64,000 nucleotides of DNA from Candidatus Bathyarchaeota archaeon A05DMB-2 (GTDB lineage: Archaea > Thermoproteota > Bathyarchaeia > Bathyarchaeales > Bathycorpusculaceae): assembly GCA_018475625.1 (NCBI GenBank), contig JAAKEZ010000008.1, forward strand, positions 1 to 64,000. The letters are read 5' to 3'. Below are positions 2,546 to 55,879 of the stretch, piece by piece (within the stretch, counting starts at the first letter, position 1; every line of letters starts with the position of its first letter). The notes under the pieces are model-generated. The model was not told the DNA's origin, made no database searches, and saw nothing but the letters and a program-made list of their open reading frames with translations. Position numbers and translations under genes: made by a program.

Positions 2546-3823
2546 TTAGAGCTTTTCCTCAGGCGAAATGTCCATCATCGCTAAGCCCGAAACTGGCTTC
2601 GGATAGAAATCCGTGGATTTCTCCGGTAACCGTTCATGCTGCTGCGCAATCTGCCACACAACCTTAGAACTTATCGGATTAACTAGGAACGCCACGCTGG
2701 CTTCGCCCTTGTCAACTTTTTCCACGGCTTCTCTTGTCCATCGCACGTAAAGAATATCCTCATCCATCTTGAACTCTCCTGCGTTTAGTACGCTCTTGAA
2801 AATCACGTCATGCAGTATGACTACATCAAAAAGCTTTGTTTCCTTTGACGAAATGGCTTCCACGAATTCGTAAACGTGTTTCTCATGCTTCAAAAGCAAG
2901 CCATGTGCCTTCTCTTTGGTGTAAACGCAGAAAGCATGTTCGTTCCTGTTGTTCGCAAGAAACTCTTCCAAGCCTTTTACGGTGGCGTCAATTTCTGAAA
3001 CAGTGAAAAGTTGTTGCAGCGCGTCCATGTGGTCGTTTGTTAGTTTAAAGTTTTTCAGGAGTCGGTGAGTGGGCAAAACCACGAGTCCTTTTTCTTGAAC
3101 TGGAACCATGTAGCTCATGTGGAAATTGAACGCGGAATCTTCAGACCAATTTCCCTGTCTGCGCATTTCGTCTCTGTAGGCGACGGCACTTTCGTACCTG
3201 TGGTGGCCGTCTGTAATCACGAGGTTCTTATCTTTCAGTGCTTCCTGCACGAGCCGTATTTTTTGCGGGTCAGTCACCCTCCAAAGGGTGTGCTTGACTC
3301 TGAAGGAATCCTCGACTTCCGCCACGGGTTTAGTCTTCGTGACATCCGCAAAAAATTCGATGGTTCTGTTCTCTGGGTCGGAGTAAATTAGAAAAACGGG
3401 TTCAAGGTCTTTTTGAACCGTGCGCAGCATGCTCAGCCTGTCCGCTTTCGGCTCTTCATACGTGACTTCGTGGGGGAAAACGACATCTTCGCTATAGTCG
3501 TAGAGTCGCAAGGCGGCGATTAGCCCTGTGCGGGCGCAGGTTTCACCGTTAAGCCTGAATTCTTGTCTTGAGACGAAAACCGTTGGTTCTTTATCCTTCG
3601 CAAGTACGCCTTCGCTCATCCACTGTTGGATTCTTTGCCGCGCCACTTCATACTTGTTCTCTTCTAACGGCAGAATCAGTCGGCAGTAGTTGTACGGTGA
3701 CTGCTTGTAGTATTCAACCTGCATATCGGGGTCGATTTTGTCATAGGGCTGAGTTATCAGGTTTTTGAGGTCTCCAGCTTTTTCAGTGTAGCGTATTGCC
3801 TTGAATGGTCTAATGTCAACCAA
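2546..3823 (-). CDS. DUF1015 family protein
   Basis: 425 residues matching the DUF1015 family from end to end: IRPFKAIRYTEKAGDLKNLITQPYDKID at the start (quoted in part: RPFKAIRY, QPYD), VFPHEVTY, and the family hallmark DGHHRYE near residue 205. Third gene of an operon behind the class V aminotransferase and phosphoglycerate dehydrogenase, 5 bases after serA. The same neighbourhood is known in other archaea and Thermotogales, which suggests a step in serine metabolism; no phosphoserine phosphatase is seen here, so DUF1015 could be linked to that step. That role is inference. Confidence 0.9.
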   Translation of the reverse strand: MVDIRPFKAIRYTEKAGDLKNLITQPYDKIDPDMQVEYYKQSPYNYCRLILPLEENKYEVARQRIQQWMSEGVLAKDKEPTVFVSRQEFRLNGETCARTGLIAALRLYDYSEDVVFPHEVTYEEPKADRLSMLRTVQKDLEPVFLIYSDPENRTIEFFADVTKTKPVAEVEDSFRVKHTLWRVTDPQKIRLVQEALKDKNLVITDGHHRYESAVAYRDEMRRQGNWSEDSAFNFHMSYMVPVQEKGLVVLPTHRLLKNFKLTNDHMDALQQLFTVSEIDATVKGLEEFLANNRNEHAFCVYTKEKAHGLLLKHEKHVYEFVEAISSKETKLFDVVILHDVIFKSVLNAGEFKMDEDILYVRWTREAVEKVDKGEASVAFLVNPISSKVVWQIAQQHERLPEKSTDFYPKPVSGLAMMDISPEEKL

Positions 3824-50037: not shown

Positions 50038-50315
50038 TTGTCTCAGCCAGTTTATGGAAGAATAACGTACTATCGAATAGGCATCAGAACACAAATGTCC
50101 CGTGAGTGCCTAATTAAATTCACATAGTTACTGCCGCCAAGGCTAGCCAACTCATTGGTCGAAAAGTGTGGTTTGGAAAAGCGGAAACAAGAAGCTTATA
50201 AGGAAGGATCGTAGGTTTCCACGGAAAGAACGGCATTGTACGAGTAAGATTAAAGAAAGGAGTGCCTGGTCAAGCGCTAGGAACACCAGTCGCATTAGTC
50301 AGTCAAAGAATTTGA
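50038..50315 (+). pseudogene. Decayed ribosomal protein eL33 (L35Ae) gene
   Basis: Read in pieces the sequence is L35Ae: from TTG SQPVYGRITYYRIGIRTQMS, RECLIKFT, stop; then after a one-base shift VTAAKASQLIGRKVWFGKAE, an in-frame TAA, then GRIVGFHGKNGIVRVRLKKG and VPGQALGTPVALV. Thus one frameshift near 50115-50120 and one stop near 50200. The order and conserved GKNGIVRVR and KGVPGQALG are those of the family. Either decayed or carrying two sequencing errors. Confidence 0.8.
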
Positions 50316-50390
50316 GCTATCCAACTCTGCTTTGATAGCAACGATCCAAAAGTCCCAGTATAGAAAGTATTCAAAAAAGCAGGGGATTCT

Positions 50391-50498
50391 TTGATTAGAA
50401 ATGCGCGTTTTAACAAGTTAGAATGCAAAAATTGCATATACAACGGGAGTCCCTACTGCTGGAACCAGTGCCCTTACAACATTTGGCGAAATCCCTGA
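50391..50498 (+). CDS. Possible small Cys-rich protein
   Basis: 35 codons from TTG with AGGGG 6 bases before it: LECKNCIYNGSPYCWNQCPY carries CxxC and CxxxC in a zinc-finger-like layout. No family recognised and the frame is short. Confidence 0.35.
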   Translation: MIRNARFNKLECKNCIYNGSPYCWNQCPYNIWRNP

Positions 50499-50853
50499 AA
50501 CTATTCTCCTTAAAGCGTTTTTTCAAGGGGTGCTGTTCTACCCTTAGGATATTTAGACATTCAATCTATTGCTTCCGCTTTTGCTTCGGTAGGAAATTCC
50601 TGTGATATTTTGCTTCCTTACTCGTTATCCTTCACTTTTGGGAACAGAAGCACCACGTAATGCTCTACATATTGTTTCTTTGTGAACTAGATTTTGTTCT
50701 GCGGTCTGATTCATAAATCCCTTTTGTTGTCTATCCTTCTCCAGCCCTTTACTATCTTCATGAAAAATCTCACGTTTTCAGTTGCAGAGGTAATCCACAT
50801 CCGAACAGTTCGCTTTTTCTGTTTCAGTCTTTCTTTTCACATAGCCATCTTTT
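50499..50853. other. Intergenic region
   Basis: No supported gene in the first 280 bases. The end overlaps a second-frame continuation of the zinc-ribbon gene (50778-50969). Confidence 0.35.
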
Positions 50854-51123
50854 CTAAACAGCTTCCTTATCGTGCGTGCTGTAAGACCATTGGAATACAC
50901 TATGATGACCGGCCTCCTTCTTTTCCTGTCTGATATTCCTTCGTCGTGCCCACGCTTGTTTCGGGTCAAAACCGTTTGTCTTGTTGATACTTTCTGAGTG
51001 CTTAAACATGTGTTTTGAAAAGCACGTTTTACAGTAAGCTGGTTTGCCAGCTGTGGGTTTGAAAGGGACCATTGCAGTTTTGCCGCAGTCGGAACATTTA
51101 ATCTCGAACATATTTTTTTGCAT
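50854..51123 (-). CDS. CxxC zinc-ribbon protein with C-terminal extension
   Basis: 89 residues from ATG (MQKNMFEIKCSDCG). The ribbon CSDCGKTAMVPFKPTAGKPA then YCKTCFSKH matches the 47316 protein, including VPFKP. It is followed by about 45 residues with AWARRRNIRQEKKE. A different frame from about 50969 to 50778 also looks coding (RRPVIIVYSNGLTARTIRKL), so a frameshift may have cut a longer protein. Confidence 0.6.
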   Translation of the reverse strand: MQKNMFEIKCSDCGKTAMVPFKPTAGKPAYCKTCFSKHMFKHSESINKTNGFDPKQAWARRRNIRQEKKEAGHHSVFQWSYSTHDKEAV

Positions 51124-51177
51124 CGTAATAATCACCTCTAGTAACTTGAGGCATAATTGAAAAAAGTAAATTTTCAA

Positions 51178-51413
51178 TTATCGCTATTATAAAAGGCTGC
51201 GGCTGACTTAAAGGTTCTCATCGACAAAAGTTTTCCGGATAGCTGTTGGACTTGTTCAAGTCTATAACAGCGATCGCAAATGTTTACAAGTATAATCCTC
51301 TAGAGCACTTTCCCGCGAATATTCTCAACTAACAAGTCATATCAATAAGTCTTGATAAGAGGAAAACAAGTTAATCAAGTATTTATCCAGATTAACGATT
51401 TCTTTCTCTAGAA
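51178..51413. other. Left flank of the mobile element
   Basis: AT-rich intergenic DNA with no gene. With 55601 onward it forms the reconstructed empty site; an inverted repeat CCAAC-CAAAAA-GTTGG lies just right of the insertion (55606-55621). Confidence 0.45.
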
Positions 51414-51428
51414 GGATCAAAATTTAGT
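51414..51428 (+). repeat. Target site duplication, left copy
   Basis: GGATCAAAATTTAGT, identical to 55586-55600. Because the right TIR ends in GGG the true duplication is 13 to 15 bases. Confidence 0.88.
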
Positions 51429-51517
51429 CCCAACCCAACCCAACCCATTCTTCTTCTTCTTCTTCTTAACTACTTACATCTCACATATCACACATATCAC
51501 ACATCTCACACAAAAAA
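51429..51517 (+). repeat. Terminal inverted repeat, left
   Basis: Three CCCAAC-type units, CCCA, six TTC units, then TTAACTACTTACATCTCACA and a CACATATCA-rich inner part ending CACAAAAAA. Identical to the reverse complement of 55500-55587 except for one extra A at 51447. Confidence 0.95.
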
Positions 51518-51527
51518 CGTAGAATAG

Positions 51528-52562
51528 TTAGATTGTTGGTATTCTCGGATTCCAGTCTTTCCTTTCATCCCTCAAATATTTAGCTAATAGTAGAGCTTCT
51601 TCACTGATTAAGGTCTCAAGAGTCTGTCTTTTACCAACCTTCATTCTTGCTATTTCAACGTTAGACTCGAAAAACCCATTAAGCTCTCGCATCAAACCCT
51701 TAGAATCAACATCATTAAGATATTCCCTTTTCCCTATCTTCTTTCTTGTCAAAACCTCATATTTAGTGACAAAATCCTTCTTACTCAACCCGCTAAAGCG
51801 TTGAATCAAAAAATCATCAACCAAGAAACGATAAAGCTCCATCAAATCGCAGACAAGACTCGGCTTATTAAACTGCTCAGAATGCAAGAAACCGAGAAAA
51901 GGCTCAAGTTTAGCGTTAATCAAGGCTTTATGAACCTTCCACGAAAGAAGCTCATAACCCAAATTAAACAAATTATTCAATCCATCATAAGCCTTGAAAG
52001 TCCTTCGATTCTCAGGTCTCAAACCCTCAGAAAACAAGCTGAAAACTTGCTGGAAATAAGCATTAGAGCAGTGCCCTTCATACGTTGAAAGCTTCCTTCT
52101 AAGCCTATTCAAGCTCTCAAGCTCAAGATTCTTAACTCGTTCAATCATGGAAAAATCAAGCTGTCTCAACCCATATTTCTTAAGAACCTGATTCTGTCCT
52201 TGAATCTTGGCTAAAACAAGTTTCTTGGCTATTTCTAAGCCTTTTCCGCTTTTCAAAGCTTCATACTGGCAAACACGAGTTTTAACGTGTGAATCATCAT
52301 CTAACGCTTTAAGCATCGCAACAGGTCTCCCTCTCTGAGTCATAATCAAAACATCAACATCCCAGAAACCCAATGAAGCTAAAGCTCCCGTTGAAACCAT
52401 ATTTCCACTTTTCAGGATAACTTCGCCGATTTCCTTCTCAAATAAGGGAAAACGTTGAATATTTCCTTCTTTATCTTTAACCGTGAATGCGCCTTTTTCC
52501 ATTCCGAGATATGAACCGTGACTGTCAAGAATGATTTTTTGAGTTTTAGAACCCTGAACCAT
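51528..52562 (-). CDS. cas1: Cas1-type integrase (casposase)
   Basis: 344 residues. N-terminal Cas1 beta domain (LDSHGSYLGMEKGAFTVKDK, LIMTQRGRPVA) and helical C-terminal domain with all metal ligands: Glu162 in YEGHCSNAYF, His227 in GFLHSEQ, and Asp239/Glu242 in VCDLMELYRF. In casposons Cas1 inserts the element and makes 14-15-base duplications. Unlike many casposases it ends at KYLRDERKDWNP without an added C-terminal HTH. Starts within the stop of the winged-helix gene (TAATG). No cas2, no CRISPR. Confidence 0.95.
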   Translation of the reverse strand: MVQGSKTQKIILDSHGSYLGMEKGAFTVKDKEGNIQRFPLFEKEIGEVILKSGNMVSTGALASLGFWDVDVLIMTQRGRPVAMLKALDDDSHVKTRVCQYEALKSGKGLEIAKKLVLAKIQGQNQVLKKYGLRQLDFSMIERVKNLELESLNRLRRKLSTYEGHCSNAYFQQVFSLFSEGLRPENRRTFKAYDGLNNLFNLGYELLSWKVHKALINAKLEPFLGFLHSEQFNKPSLVCDLMELYRFLVDDFLIQRFSGLSKKDFVTKYEVLTRKKIGKREYLNDVDSKGLMRELNGFFESNVEIARMKVGKRQTLETLISEEALLLAKYLRDERKDWNPRIPTI

Positions 52563-53200
52563 TATTCTTTTTGCTCCTTTTTCTTTAAGTTTGAACCTAA
52601 TTGTTTTCCCAATTCCAAACTGTCTTTGAGTGGTTGTTTTGAAAACCCTTCTTTATCATATATTTTATTGCAGGCATCGTAAATTTTTAACAGTTCTTCT
52701 TCAGTAGGATTTATTTTTTGGCATTTTTCTAAAAAAGATGCTATAAAAGATTTATCATTAAACATTTCAAATAAGTCTGTAACAAGAGTTTTTAAAAAAT
52801 ACTCTTCATCAAAATATTTTAAATTCACTTTAGGTTTCATTTTTAAAACAATATCTGTAATAGCTTCAATGGGTATCATTCTCCAAAATATATTTGGTAT
52901 ATGACTGAATTTATTTTGTAGAAGTTTCTGAATTACACTTCTAAGCTCCTTTTTTTGAAGATTTCCCTCAATAATAAGTGTAGCCATTCCTTTAAGCGTC
53001 AAAATTGGTTTTTCAGTTCTTCTTTTGTCTAATTGTTTGATTATGGTGAGAAAACCGTCTTTTTTCATTTTGTTAATGTGTCGCCAAACAGTCGCATAGT
53101 TTGATTTAACTCCAGTTTTTTTCAAATATGCTTCTAAGCCATATTTGCTTTTTTGGTCAATCAGGATTGCTTTCAATATTTCTTGGTCTAACCTATTCAT
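52562..53200 (-). CDS. Winged-helix protein coupled to cas1
   Basis: 212 residues. Residues 1-80 are a winged helix (LDQEILKAILIDQKSKYGLE, YATVWRHINKMKKDGFLTI, KPILTLKGMATLI); the rest is helical with many Lys/Phe (IPNIFWRMIPIEAITDIVLK) and may bind DNA or Cas1. It shares TAATG with cas1, so both are made together. It may take over the end-binding job of the HTH domain that is missing from this Cas1, or act as repressor at the palindrome upstream of its ATG. Confidence 0.75.
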   Translation of the reverse strand: MNRLDQEILKAILIDQKSKYGLEAYLKKTGVKSNYATVWRHINKMKKDGFLTIIKQLDKRRTEKPILTLKGMATLIIEGNLQKKELRSVIQKLLQNKFSHIPNIFWRMIPIEAITDIVLKMKPKVNLKYFDEEYFLKTLVTDLFEMFNDKSFIASFLEKCQKINPTEEELLKIYDACNKIYDKEGFSKQPLKDSLELGKQLGSNLKKKEQKE

Positions 53201-53226
53201 TTTTACCGCCTTTTTGAATATATTCT

Positions 53227-53241
53227 ATTCAATCATTGAAT
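53227..53241. promoter_or_regulatory. Palindrome in the divergent promoter of the element
   Basis: ATTCAATCATTGAAT, perfect palindrome with 7-base arms, lies between the leftward cas1 operon and the rightward small-gene operon. TATA-like AATATATAAG (53256-53265) faces rightward. Likely operator for the winged-helix or RHH-like protein. Confidence 0.6.
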
Positions 53242-53293
53242 ATGAACGTAAAGCAAATATATAAGCTTAGTTACAAAGTGGTAATGACCGCCT

Positions 53294-53401
53294 ATGAAAA
53301 CAATTCACCAAACATTTACAGATGAAGAGTTTGAGAAGCTCCAAACTGCGAAGGGAACAAAAAACTGGCATGATTTTATCATGGAGTTGGCGAAGAAATG
53401 A
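53294..53401 (+). CDS. Small antitoxin-like protein of the element
   Basis: 35 residues: IHQTFTDEEFEKLQTAKGTK then NWHDFIMELAKK. The TFTDEEFEKL-AKG-WHDF pattern is that of small archaeal RHH/VapB-type proteins found on plasmids and viruses. It overlaps the next gene by ATGA. May bind DNA as a dimer. Confidence 0.6.
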   Translation: MKTIHQTFTDEEFEKLQTAKGTKNWHDFIMELAKK

Positions 53402-53562
53402 GGAAATGGCATATCCAAAGTGACCCAGAGTACAGAAGCAAAATCGAGTCTTTAAGGAAGATAAAGAGCAAATTAGACAAGAATATAGAGAATTGTAGCA
53501 CAGAGAAGCTTAATTTAAGAAATGCAAGGAGAAAACAGAATGAACAAGCAAAACAACCCTGA
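53398..53562 (+). CDS. Small basic protein of the element
   Basis: 54 residues, highly basic and helical (YRSKIESLRKIKSKLDKNIE, LNLRNARRKQNEQ). Starts in the stop of the preceding gene (ATGA). No family recognised. Confidence 0.5.
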   Translation: MRKWHIQSDPEYRSKIESLRKIKSKLDKNIENCSTEKLNLRNARRKQNEQAKQP

Positions 53563-53845
53563 AACAGGCACATTCTTTGAAATACGGAAATCTGAACGTA
53601 AAGAATGGGAAAAGCTCCGAAGGGCAGAAGAAGCAAAAAATTTTAGGCGAATCATGCGTTTAGCCAAGAAGCTCTGTCCCATTGACTACGTCAACCTCTG
53701 CTATGAAATCCAGTTCAGGCTCCACATCAACTATAACCACACTCAAAAGGCTCCTTACAGCCGATACTTAGACACTTTAATCGGAATCGGGAAACTCAAG
53801 AAAACCGATGATGGAACGGTCAGTTTAGGAGATGCACAGAAATGA
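53540..53845 (+). CDS. Hypothetical element protein
   Basis: 101 residues from ATG with AAGGAG 8 bases upstream. Charged N-terminus (RKSERKEWEKLRRAEEAKNF), then CPIDYVNLCYEIQFRLHINY and YSRYLDTLIGIGKLKKTDDG, a winged-helix-like end. Overlaps the next gene by ATGA. No family recognised. Confidence 0.6.
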   Translation: MNKQNNPETGTFFEIRKSERKEWEKLRRAEEAKNFRRIMRLAKKLCPIDYVNLCYEIQFRLHINYNHTQKAPYSRYLDTLIGIGKLKKTDDGTVSLGDAQK

Positions 53846-54267
53846 GTGAACCTAAAAAACTCAATACTGAAATTATTTTAACATACATTGGAGCAACAAA
53901 AGACAACCTCCGAGCCGATGCTTACAACCACTGGTACAGATTCATTGAGTTTTGCAAACGAAATTCTGGAAAAAACTGGAAAGAAGATATTAGAGCAAAA
54001 CTAAGGTCATGGATAGGAGTCGATTTTAGGTATTTAGATGATTATCTCATGTCTTGCTTATCATGGGGAATTATGGAATTAAATGATGGAAACCTGATTT
54101 TCAAAGGAATACCTGACGATGCTGAAATGCCATGCGAGTTGACTGAGGAGCAACTCAAAGAAGAACTTGCAGAGGAAAATGAGCAGAGAAACAAGCTTGG
54201 AAAGCCCAGAGTCAGCTTAGAAGAGTGGAAAGAGAAGCGTTCTAAACGGTTGAAGCCGATAAAATAG
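53842..54267 (+). CDS. Hypothetical element protein
   Basis: 141 residues, acidic; EIILTYIGATKDNLRADAYN and SWIGVDFRYLDDYLMSCLSW suggest a globular helical domain, followed by a Glu/Lys-rich tail. Paralogue-like in plan to the previous protein (helical domain sensing or adaptor). No family recognised. Confidence 0.6.
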   Translation: MSEPKKLNTEIILTYIGATKDNLRADAYNHWYRFIEFCKRNSGKNWKEDIRAKLRSWIGVDFRYLDDYLMSCLSWGIMELNDGNLIFKGIPDDAEMPCELTEEQLKEELAEENEQRNKLGKPRVSLEEWKEKRSKRLKPIK

Positions 54268-54280
54268 GAGATTTTGAGCC

Positions 54281-54682
54281 TTGCCGAAAGCTAAAAAACT
54301 GAATCCAAGGACTATTTTGGCAATCCATGGTTACGTTAAGAAAGGTTACTCGGCTAACAGGATACAGAAACAGCTTCAAGCTCAACATCTCGGAATAAGA
54401 AGGAAAACGCTTCTTGCAGAAATCCGCAGAGTCAAAGGTCAACCGTCAAAAGCTGAAACCGTCAAGTACATTCCTAAAAAGTATGCTCGGGCAAGATGGA
54501 AAGCGAGAGCCAAAAGAATAAAATTTGAACCGATTAGAGGAAAACAGGTAACTCTCACAGGATTGCATAAAGGAAAATTAATTTCTAAAACTCAGCATGG
54601 CTCAGGAAAAGACCTCTTTCGTTTCGTTAAGGATGAAATGACAGGTGATTATTGGGATGAAAAACCACACATCCACAGCTAA
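54281..54682 (+). CDS. HTH protein of the element
   Basis: 133 residues, TTG start with AGGAG 12 bases upstream. TILAIHGYVKKGYSANRIQK then HLGIRRKTLLAEIRRVKGQ is a resolvase-type helix-turn-helix; a basic SH3-like C-terminus follows (RGKQVTLTGLHKGKLISKTQ). It probably binds DNA, possibly the element ends. Confidence 0.6.
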   Translation: MPKAKKLNPRTILAIHGYVKKGYSANRIQKQLQAQHLGIRRKTLLAEIRRVKGQPSKAETVKYIPKKYARARWKARAKRIKFEPIRGKQVTLTGLHKGKLISKTQHGSGKDLFRFVKDEMTGDYWDEKPHIHS

Positions 54683-55316
54683 AAAACATGTTTCAATCTA
54701 TGGCTCTCACGAAAAGAAGAGTAAAAGATGGGAATTGGAGATAGATGAAAACAACCCTAAAGACATGGAAGCATTAAAGTTGGCTGTTCAGCATCCACCT
54801 GAACAATGTTTTCCACGTAAAAATCCTTACCCAAAGGTTGTTTTGGGCGATTGGGATACAGATATGGTTAAAGTTGACTGGGATGAGAGGTTTTTATGTG
54901 AAGTTAAGCGTTTTTCAAAGATACTTGTTAAGCGTTTTTCCGTTTTAGGTGATGGATTCATTATTTTGAAATCAAGTACAAAAACTCGTAAAATCAGAAA
55001 TGATACTTTTACCGATGTTGCTTATAGTTATAAATCGCCGAGTTATCATACTGTTTTTAACGGTGAAGTTTCTAAGGTTGAATTAGAGAGTATTCTTGCA
55101 TGGTTGTGTTTGTTTACTAAAGATAATGGTTTGATTACATGGTTTCTTTTGCAGTTGATTAAAGGCACGTACACGTTAAGAATTGGGTTTAAAGGTAAAA
55201 AGAAACCGCCTAAGATTGTTTTTCGTTATGGAAATCAAGATAAGCAGATTAAGAAATTTCTTGAGAATAGAGATTTTATTTTGAATTTTTTAATTCAATC
55301 AGAGAAAAAGAGGTGA
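54657..55316 (+). CDS. Hypothetical element protein, largest passenger
   Basis: 219 residues from ATG (MKNHTSTAKKHVSIY), overlapping the previous gene by 26 bases. A beta-rich middle (GDGFIILKSSTKTRKIRN, YSYKSPSYHTVFNGEVSK), a helix (ESILAWLCLFTKDNGLITWF) and a basic end. Highly lysine-rich. Could be a replication or integration factor in place of a polymerase, but there is no recognisable nuclease, primase or helicase motif. Confidence 0.6.
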   Translation: MKNHTSTAKKHVSIYGSHEKKSKRWELEIDENNPKDMEALKLAVQHPPEQCFPRKNPYPKVVLGDWDTDMVKVDWDERFLCEVKRFSKILVKRFSVLGDGFIILKSSTKTRKIRNDTFTDVAYSYKSPSYHTVFNGEVSKVELESILAWLCLFTKDNGLITWFLLQLIKGTYTLRIGFKGKKKPPKIVFRYGNQDKQIKKFLENRDFILNFLIQSEKKR

Positions 55317-55323
55317 AATTAAG

Positions 55324-55491
55324 TTGGTTTGGAAGAGTTGTGGTTATATTTCGTTGACGAAAGATGAAAAGAAGCTTAAAATCGTGGTTAAAAAAGAAAT
55401 TTTCATCGCAGACCTTAACGATGTTAAGGCAGTTTTGAACGGTTGGCTCGATTATACAGAAATTTTTGAGCCATTAGAGATTAAACAGTAA
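55324..55491 (+). CDS. Small element protein
   Basis: 55 residues, TTG start with GAGGTGA 6 bases before it. VWKSCGYISLTKDEKKLKIV and IADLNDVKAVLNGWLDYTEI; a single small alpha/beta domain. Last gene before the right terminal repeat, 8 bases away. No family recognised. Confidence 0.55.
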   Translation: MVWKSCGYISLTKDEKKLKIVVKKEIFIADLNDVKAVLNGWLDYTEIFEPLEIKQ

Positions 55492-55499
55492 TATTTCTC

Positions 55500-55587
55500 T
55501 TTTTTGTGTGAGATGTGTGATATGTGTGATATGTGAGATGTAAGTAGTTAAGAAGAAGAAGAAGAAGAAGGGTTGGGTTGGGTTGGG
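55500..55587 (-). repeat. Terminal inverted repeat, right
   Basis: Inverted copy of 51429-51517 with one fewer base; ends TTGGGTTGGGTTGGG against the target duplication. Confidence 0.95.
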
Positions 55588-55600
55588 ATCAAAATTTAGT
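55586..55600 (+). repeat. Target site duplication, right copy
   Basis: GGATCAAAATTTAGT, identical to the left copy; overlaps the TIR end by two G. Confidence 0.88.
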
Positions 55601-55879
55601 TATAGCCAACCAAAAAGTTGGACCTGCTTTCTTGCAGTGAGCACTTGACTTTATGACGGCAAACAATACCGTTAAACTGAAAAACATATCTATGGCTCAT
55701 GCTTCTTGGTTTCTTACCCTATAATAATGCCCATGTGTATTTCTGTAGAGTTTTTTATGTTTATGTGTCATTTTCCTTTTATGCGGCATTTCTTACATTC
55801 CCCCATCGTGCCTGTGCTCTTTTGCGCGCTAACTGACAGGTAACAGTATAAGTGAGTCCCGCATTATATATAGACGTTA

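Follow-up and report, generated by a model that had tools for sequence, protein, structure and literature searches.

A compact Cas1-encoding element of Bathyarchaeia from a mobile family without a family B DNA polymerase

Casposons are presumed to be the source of CRISPR adaptation and are defined as self-synthesizing elements that carry a family B DNA polymerase (PolB), as nearly all known casposons do. How is a casposon-like element to be understood in which such a polymerase is not recognisable? The question is raised by an element of 4,159 bp (51429-55587) in a stretch of 64,000 nucleotides, here called the window, of contig JAAKEZ010000008.1 from Candidatus Bathyarchaeota archaeon A05DMB-2. 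It very probably represents a complete, presumably autonomous transposon that is moved by Cas1 and belongs to a PolB-less family restricted to Bathyarchaeia.

The element is bounded by terminal inverted repeats (TIRs) and a target-site duplication (TSD):

51416-55600, inserted element including both TSD copies, complete
51416..51428, no strand, left TSD copy ATCAAAATTTAGT, 13 bp, identical to the right copy and framed on the TIR ends
51429..51517, plus strand, left TIR, 89 nt, (CCCAAC)3 followed by (TTC)n and 9-nt repeats
55500..55587, minus strand, right TIR, 88 nt, inverted partner of the left arm
55588..55600, no strand, right TSD copy ATCAAAATTTAGT, 13 bp, framed on the TIR ends

One TIR arm used as query matches the opposite arm at 99%, in agreement with the repeats of 88-89 bases reported in a preliminary description of this DNA. 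The duplication, given there as 13-15 bases, is exact over 13 bp; it appears to comprise 15 bp because a chance GG adjoins the left copy. TSD and TIRs together score 37.5, compared with a maximum of 24.5 among 150 shuffled loci, and the locus is thereby confirmed as a complete inserted element. It is present in a single copy, since a search of the whole genome with a TIR arm returned no further copies above noise.

Ten further complete elements with both ends and duplications were found, together with one composite, all of them in genomes of Bathyarchaeia:

L034, 5.4 kb
L035, 12.6 kb
L036, 3.9 kb
L037, 4.5 kb
L038, 4.1 kb
L039, 4.5 kb
L040, 6.2 kb
L055, 6.2 kb
L160, 3.3 kb
L163, 7.6 kb
L032, 7.5 kb, composite with several insertion junctions

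The complete relatives span 3.3-12.6 kb and most measure 3.3-7.6 kb, so that the 4.2 kb of the window element, previously regarded as unusually small, are ordinary for the family. TSD and TIR scores of the ten relatives (29-53) all lie above the shuffle maximum of 24.5, and as a positive control the same end scan recovered eight family-1 casposons from Nitrosopumilaceae-type genomes, recognised by a protein-primed PolB beside Cas1. For L033 and L057/L161 no ends could be assigned. Close Cas1 homologues (above 180 bits, mostly 46-71% identical) occur in at least 22 of the 257 genomes of the class; for comparison, sampled CRISPR Cas1 proteins score at most 161 bits. An alignment-based Cas1 scan of genome contigs yielded 19 loci, 17 of them titled Bathyarchaeota and the other two 'uncultured archaeon' (L059) and Levybacteria (L060), while single-sequence scans of genome contigs and IMG/VR gave no match. 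The contig labelled Levybacteria (MFNH01000027.1) has a Bathyarchaeia-type family Cas1; it is probably misbinned, its RBG_16 series being the same as that of Bathyarchaeota metagenome-assembled genomes. Many copies across the class are truncated or interrupted by stops, which fits the expectation for a transposon lineage.

For three relatives the precise empty site is preserved in a congeneric genome, and the family is therefore mobile. The joined flanks of L034 and L039 align without interruption in G007, at 94% (901/901) and 91%, respectively, and those of L036 align in G036 at 92% across 682 positions spanning the junction. Each of these empty sites holds a single copy of the duplicated sequence.

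Two genes on the minus strand, for Cas1 and a probable winged-helix protein, and seven small plus-strand open reading frames (ORFs) make up the window element:

51528..52562, minus strand, cas1, casposase-like integrase, 344 aa, Pfam Cas_Cas1 1.2e-47, catalytic residues intact
52562..53200, minus strand, probable winged-helix DNA-binding protein, 212 aa, overlaps cas1 by 1 base
53294..53401, plus strand, 35-aa ORF (translation), ribbon-helix-helix regulator-like by eye, no Pfam match
53398..53562, plus strand, 54-aa ORF (translation)
53540..53845, plus strand, 101-aa ORF (translation)
53842..54267, plus strand, 141-aa ORF (translation)
54281..54682, plus strand, helix-turn-helix (HTH)-like protein, 133 aa, directly upstream of the primase-like gene
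54657..55316, plus strand, candidate archaeo-eukaryotic-primase-like (AEP-like) replication protein, 219 aa, conserved DxD (D74, D76), S107, T173, R175
55324..55491, plus strand, 55-aa ORF, 43% to a 74-aa ORF of the 12.6-kb element L035

Residues E162, H227, D239 and E242 of Cas1 are invariant across ten family members. When the proteins encoded by the eleven elements were searched against Pfam, PHROGs and NCBIfam, none matched PolB, HNH or Cas4, and in the window element none matched Cas2 either; this element also contains neither a CRISPR array nor other cas genes beside cas1. No complete recombinase or transposase other than Cas1 was recognised in the eleven elements, where weak matches such as transposase zinc-binding domains were all that appeared, leaving Cas1 as the sole recognisable integrase. 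The preliminary description of a Cas1-driven, casposon-like element of a distinct family, with intact Cas1 and devoid of PolB and nucleases, is thus borne out. Among the relatives, none with PolB came to light, and for this reason the term 'stripped' casposon finds no support. The absence of CRISPR, likewise claimed, holds for the element itself but not for the genome, as outlined below.

As to accessory genes, the 212-aa protein gives weak profile matches to HTH_24 (0.01) and Csa3/CARF (0.003-0.004), and by eye winged-helix-like ORFs adjoin cas1 also in L037, L040 and L055. The 133-aa protein resembles its counterpart in L037 (34%, 5e-14), with lookalike ORFs seen by eye in L055 and L160. Some elements bear restriction-modification genes (ThaI, Mrr, DNA methylases) or ParB-like proteins. 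L163 (1308-8944) carries DNA methylase and probable restriction endonuclease genes, a ThaI match of 4.5e-90 being found among its proteins as a set rather than tied to one of them, and also holds a second, C-terminal Cas1 fragment (3133-3381).

The target of the family is equally well circumscribed. Automatic framing puts the TSD at 13 bp for eight elements and at 14 for L039; inspection by eye gives 13 bp for L040 and L160. Ten sites have in common the palindromic, AT-rich consensus ATWAAAnTTTAAT (10.1 bits), the sites being of the ATTAAAnTTTAAT type, also given as the ATTAAAATTTAAT type. Palindromic pairs average 4.3 out of 6 as compared with 2.34 in AT-matched 13-mers, and none of 5000 draws reached this value. 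The insertions at L034:5530 and L039:9380 (both in genome G036) come after an identical CCCCCCTTATATATA stretch, and G007 contains many short stretches similar to it; the target may include a TATA-like promoter element. In L160 one 13-mer occurs three times, marking off the Cas1 element and a further unit, about 0.7 kb long and without Cas1. Tandem or nested insertions at a common 13-bp site are seen in L160:8147-12187 and L032:6740-14240; some of the inserted units have repeat ends but no Cas1, which suggests that these are non-autonomous relatives. Tandem insertion as such has already been reported for casposons (PMC6563490).

Tandem repeats of a short unit, for example (CCCAAC)3, (CCAA)6, (CCCAAA)n, (CCT)4, (CTTC)4, (CA)n and (CT)n, make up each of the 22 TIR termini, none of which contains more than one G in 24 nt. 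Periodicity scores are 0.74 for these termini, 0.40 for internal 24-mers and 0.46 for the ends of family-1 casposons. The two arms of an element may contain unequal numbers of repeats, as in L036 and L160. As at telomeres, it is the G-rich or purine-rich strand whose 3' end points to the tip, a likeness that may reflect maintenance of the ends.

From these sequences we infer that Cas1 is the catalyst, and likewise the strand-transfer chemistry and the autonomy of the element. Cas1 would bind the TIR ends and join their 3' ends to the two strands of the palindromic AT-rich target at positions 13 bp apart, and gap repair would then produce the 13-bp duplication, as with casposases and Cas1-Cas2. 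Replication would be started by the small primase-like protein (54657-55316) and its HTH partner, the DNA being copied by host enzymes; a primase-like starter combined with host replication is the likeliest plan for an element without a polymerase, and agrees with the earlier suggestion that one of its own small proteins may be used. Relatives of the 219-aa protein are present in L034, L037, L039, L040, L055, L160, L032 and L057, and divergent candidates in L163, L060, L035 and L159. Its conserved DxD and SSxxxYH (SxxxxxH) motifs resemble those of archaeo-eukaryotic primases: D74/D76 and S107 are invariant in all nine primase-like proteins and H131 is kept in seven, the window protein and that of L160 carrying an insert between S and H. 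Most intact copies in the class lie near a family Cas1. The protein has no phage match, and an IMG/VR scan with one of its relatives gave none. Across 398 genomes of the phylum, PF24387 (the AEP-like Pfam family) matches only one element of the family and, in a second carrier genome, a remnant. Primase function is proposed tentatively, as slightly less probable than some other role.

Several points weigh against the reading of the window element as a complete, Cas1-moved and autonomous transposon. The role of Cas1 as catalyst is deduced from its sequence. An exact empty site of the window copy was not found in the congener G001, which is syntenic (about 89% on both sides) but lacks about 50039-55819; since this gap exceeds the element, G001 does not decide on mobility of the window copy. 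For the putative primase, no relative was found in L036 and L038, a third acidic motif is not obvious, and PF24387 matches only four of nine members, below threshold (best 2.6e-4). Structure models are of low confidence (pLDDT 60 and 53) and give partial, mainly ferredoxin-like matches, with no AEP among the fold matches listed; a profile comparison with pRN1 RepA was negative. Furthermore, intact copies of the gene also occur away from any Cas1, for instance in G113.

In G001 the missing stretch extends past the element by about 1.4 kb on its left side, where a zinc-ribbon-like ORF (50854-51177) is located, and by about 0.2 kb on its right.

Where does the family belong among known Cas1 systems? 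Krupovic et al. (PMC4046053) describe PolB in all casposons, a median TSD of 15 and TIRs of 25-602 nt. By comparison with families 1-4 as defined there, the window element has the stand-alone intact Cas1, TIRs and TSD; because the family B DNA polymerase was looked for inside the element and not found, it is not filed under these families. Family 1 (Nitrosopumilaceae; PMC4046053, PMC6563490) is similar in its Cas1 integrase, TIRs, TSD and small genes but differs in its protein-primed PolB, a Cas1 from a separate clade, frequent insertion in ef-2 and AAATAGAATCCCCCC-like TIR ends without tandem repeats. One family-1 casposon from Nitrosopumilaceae, L158:8381-12963, measures merely 4.6 kb and has four stops in its PolB region, possibly representing a decaying PolB element. 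Families 2-4 (A. boonei, M. mazei and others) also possess a Cas1 transposase, TIRs and TSDs (published median 15 bp); they differ in carrying PolB and often HNH, in family 2 an HTH domain lies at the C-terminus of Cas1, and the best-studied target is the 3' end of tRNA-Pro (A. boonei). Integrase activity has been demonstrated biochemically there, whereas the window family is known from sequence.

The closest description is that of family 5, proposed in 2022 as a PolB-less archaeal casposase group from hot-spring metagenomes (PMC9755687), and somewhat better than even chances are given to membership of the window family in this group, which is compatible with the transposon reading. Compared by description, family 5 members are archaeal, encode Cas1 without other cas genes and near that of subtype I-A, keep the catalytic residues, mostly lack PolB, have TIRs in some contigs and are more than 50% identical to one another; TIRs, conserved catalytic residues and the absence of PolB are likewise found in the window family. 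On the other hand, one family 5 member with low identity has PolB, and TSDs, target, empty sites, the end-repeat pattern and a replication gene are not described in the main text of PMC9755687. Novelty is lowered because that study already proposes a mostly PolB-less archaeal family; the present analysis adds complete ends, TIRs that terminate in repeats, a duplication and a target that are fixed, empty sites, arrays and a candidate replication gene. None of the papers in the literature collection searched contains both 'casposon' and 'Bathyarchaeia'. The window family is best described as a distinct variant, possibly of family 5, that works like a casposon.

A less probable alternative, still to be taken seriously, is that a mobile element recaptured a CRISPR Cas1 and became casposon-like by convergence and not by descent. 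Contig C98 of the same genome G000 (L051:1-3032) contains at least 14 copies of a 37-bp repeat, CTTTCAATTCCCTTTACTTGGGATTTTTCCTTGCATC, with spacers of 37-43 nt, adjoined by a 298-aa ORF that is Cas4-like in appearance; the contig also carries its own CRISPR-type Cas1, about 30% identical to that of the element. None of 13 host spacers matches the element or the window. The CRISPR adaptation module (Cas1-Cas2) resembles the element in its Cas1 family, catalytic residues and staggered, target-duplicating integration; the element differs in lacking Cas2 and an array, in being a 4-kb unit with TIRs and in its distinct Cas1 clade. In favour of recapture, host CRISPR Cas1 proteins reach 107-161 bits with the family profile, compared with 76-107 for family-1 casposases and 96.9 for the M. 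mazei casposase, and a tree without long branches and without the single family-2 sequence joins the family to the host CRISPR Cas1 clade at 74/83, a grouping not rejected in the full tree (p-AU 0.199). Raw scores, however, partly mirror slower CRISPR branches, no transitional locus was found, and the full tree places the family on the casposase side with all sampled CRISPR Cas1 opposite (75/92). Family Cas1 proteins form one clade (100/100) outside the sampled CRISPR Cas1, the host's included; hence, although an array exists elsewhere in the genome, as the preliminary description had foreseen as a possible objection, the nesting named there together with it is not seen. The deep branches lack significance, neither sister placement is rejected, and sampling of CRISPR Cas1 and family-2 casposases is thin: family 2 is represented by one partial PDB sequence because the search of plasmids gave only CRISPR Cas1 among the matches listed and that of IMG/VR none.

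A more far-reaching version is improbable: a Cas1 transposon lineage independent of casposons that arose through a recaptured CRISPR-type Cas1, in which a minimal primase and telomere-like ends replace self-synthesis by a polymerase, perhaps with movement as linear DNA whose ends are maintained at the repeats, and which forms tandem arrays at a 13-bp palindrome.

It is very unlikely that the element is a non-autonomous derivative of PolB-carrying casposons with polymerase borrowed in trans; its small size would agree with this and the stops in polB of L158 show that such decay occurs, but PolB is missing from all eleven elements, the window genome has no PF03175 match, and no member of its Cas1 clade was seen with a PolB. 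The reading as a reduced virus or provirus that integrates by means of Cas1 is disfavoured just as strongly, since a common protein of L036 and L038 (44% identical, guessed beta-rich by eye) and membrane or pilin-like ORFs noted by eye in some elements are countered by the lack of any capsid or packaging family among the matches shown, the absence of Cas1 relatives from 2.9 million IMG/VR contigs even with the alignment scan, and a primase-like protein without phage match.

Because the family is mobile without PolB and has defined ends, a palindromic target and a stagger fixed at 13 bp, it makes the minimal needs of a Cas1 transposon testable. Its compact elements (3.3-4.5 kb) may serve as practical integrases. 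A 13-bp site that receives one insertion after another resembles a CRISPR array made of large units, and with this family the direction of Cas1 transfer between transposons and CRISPR becomes testable as well.

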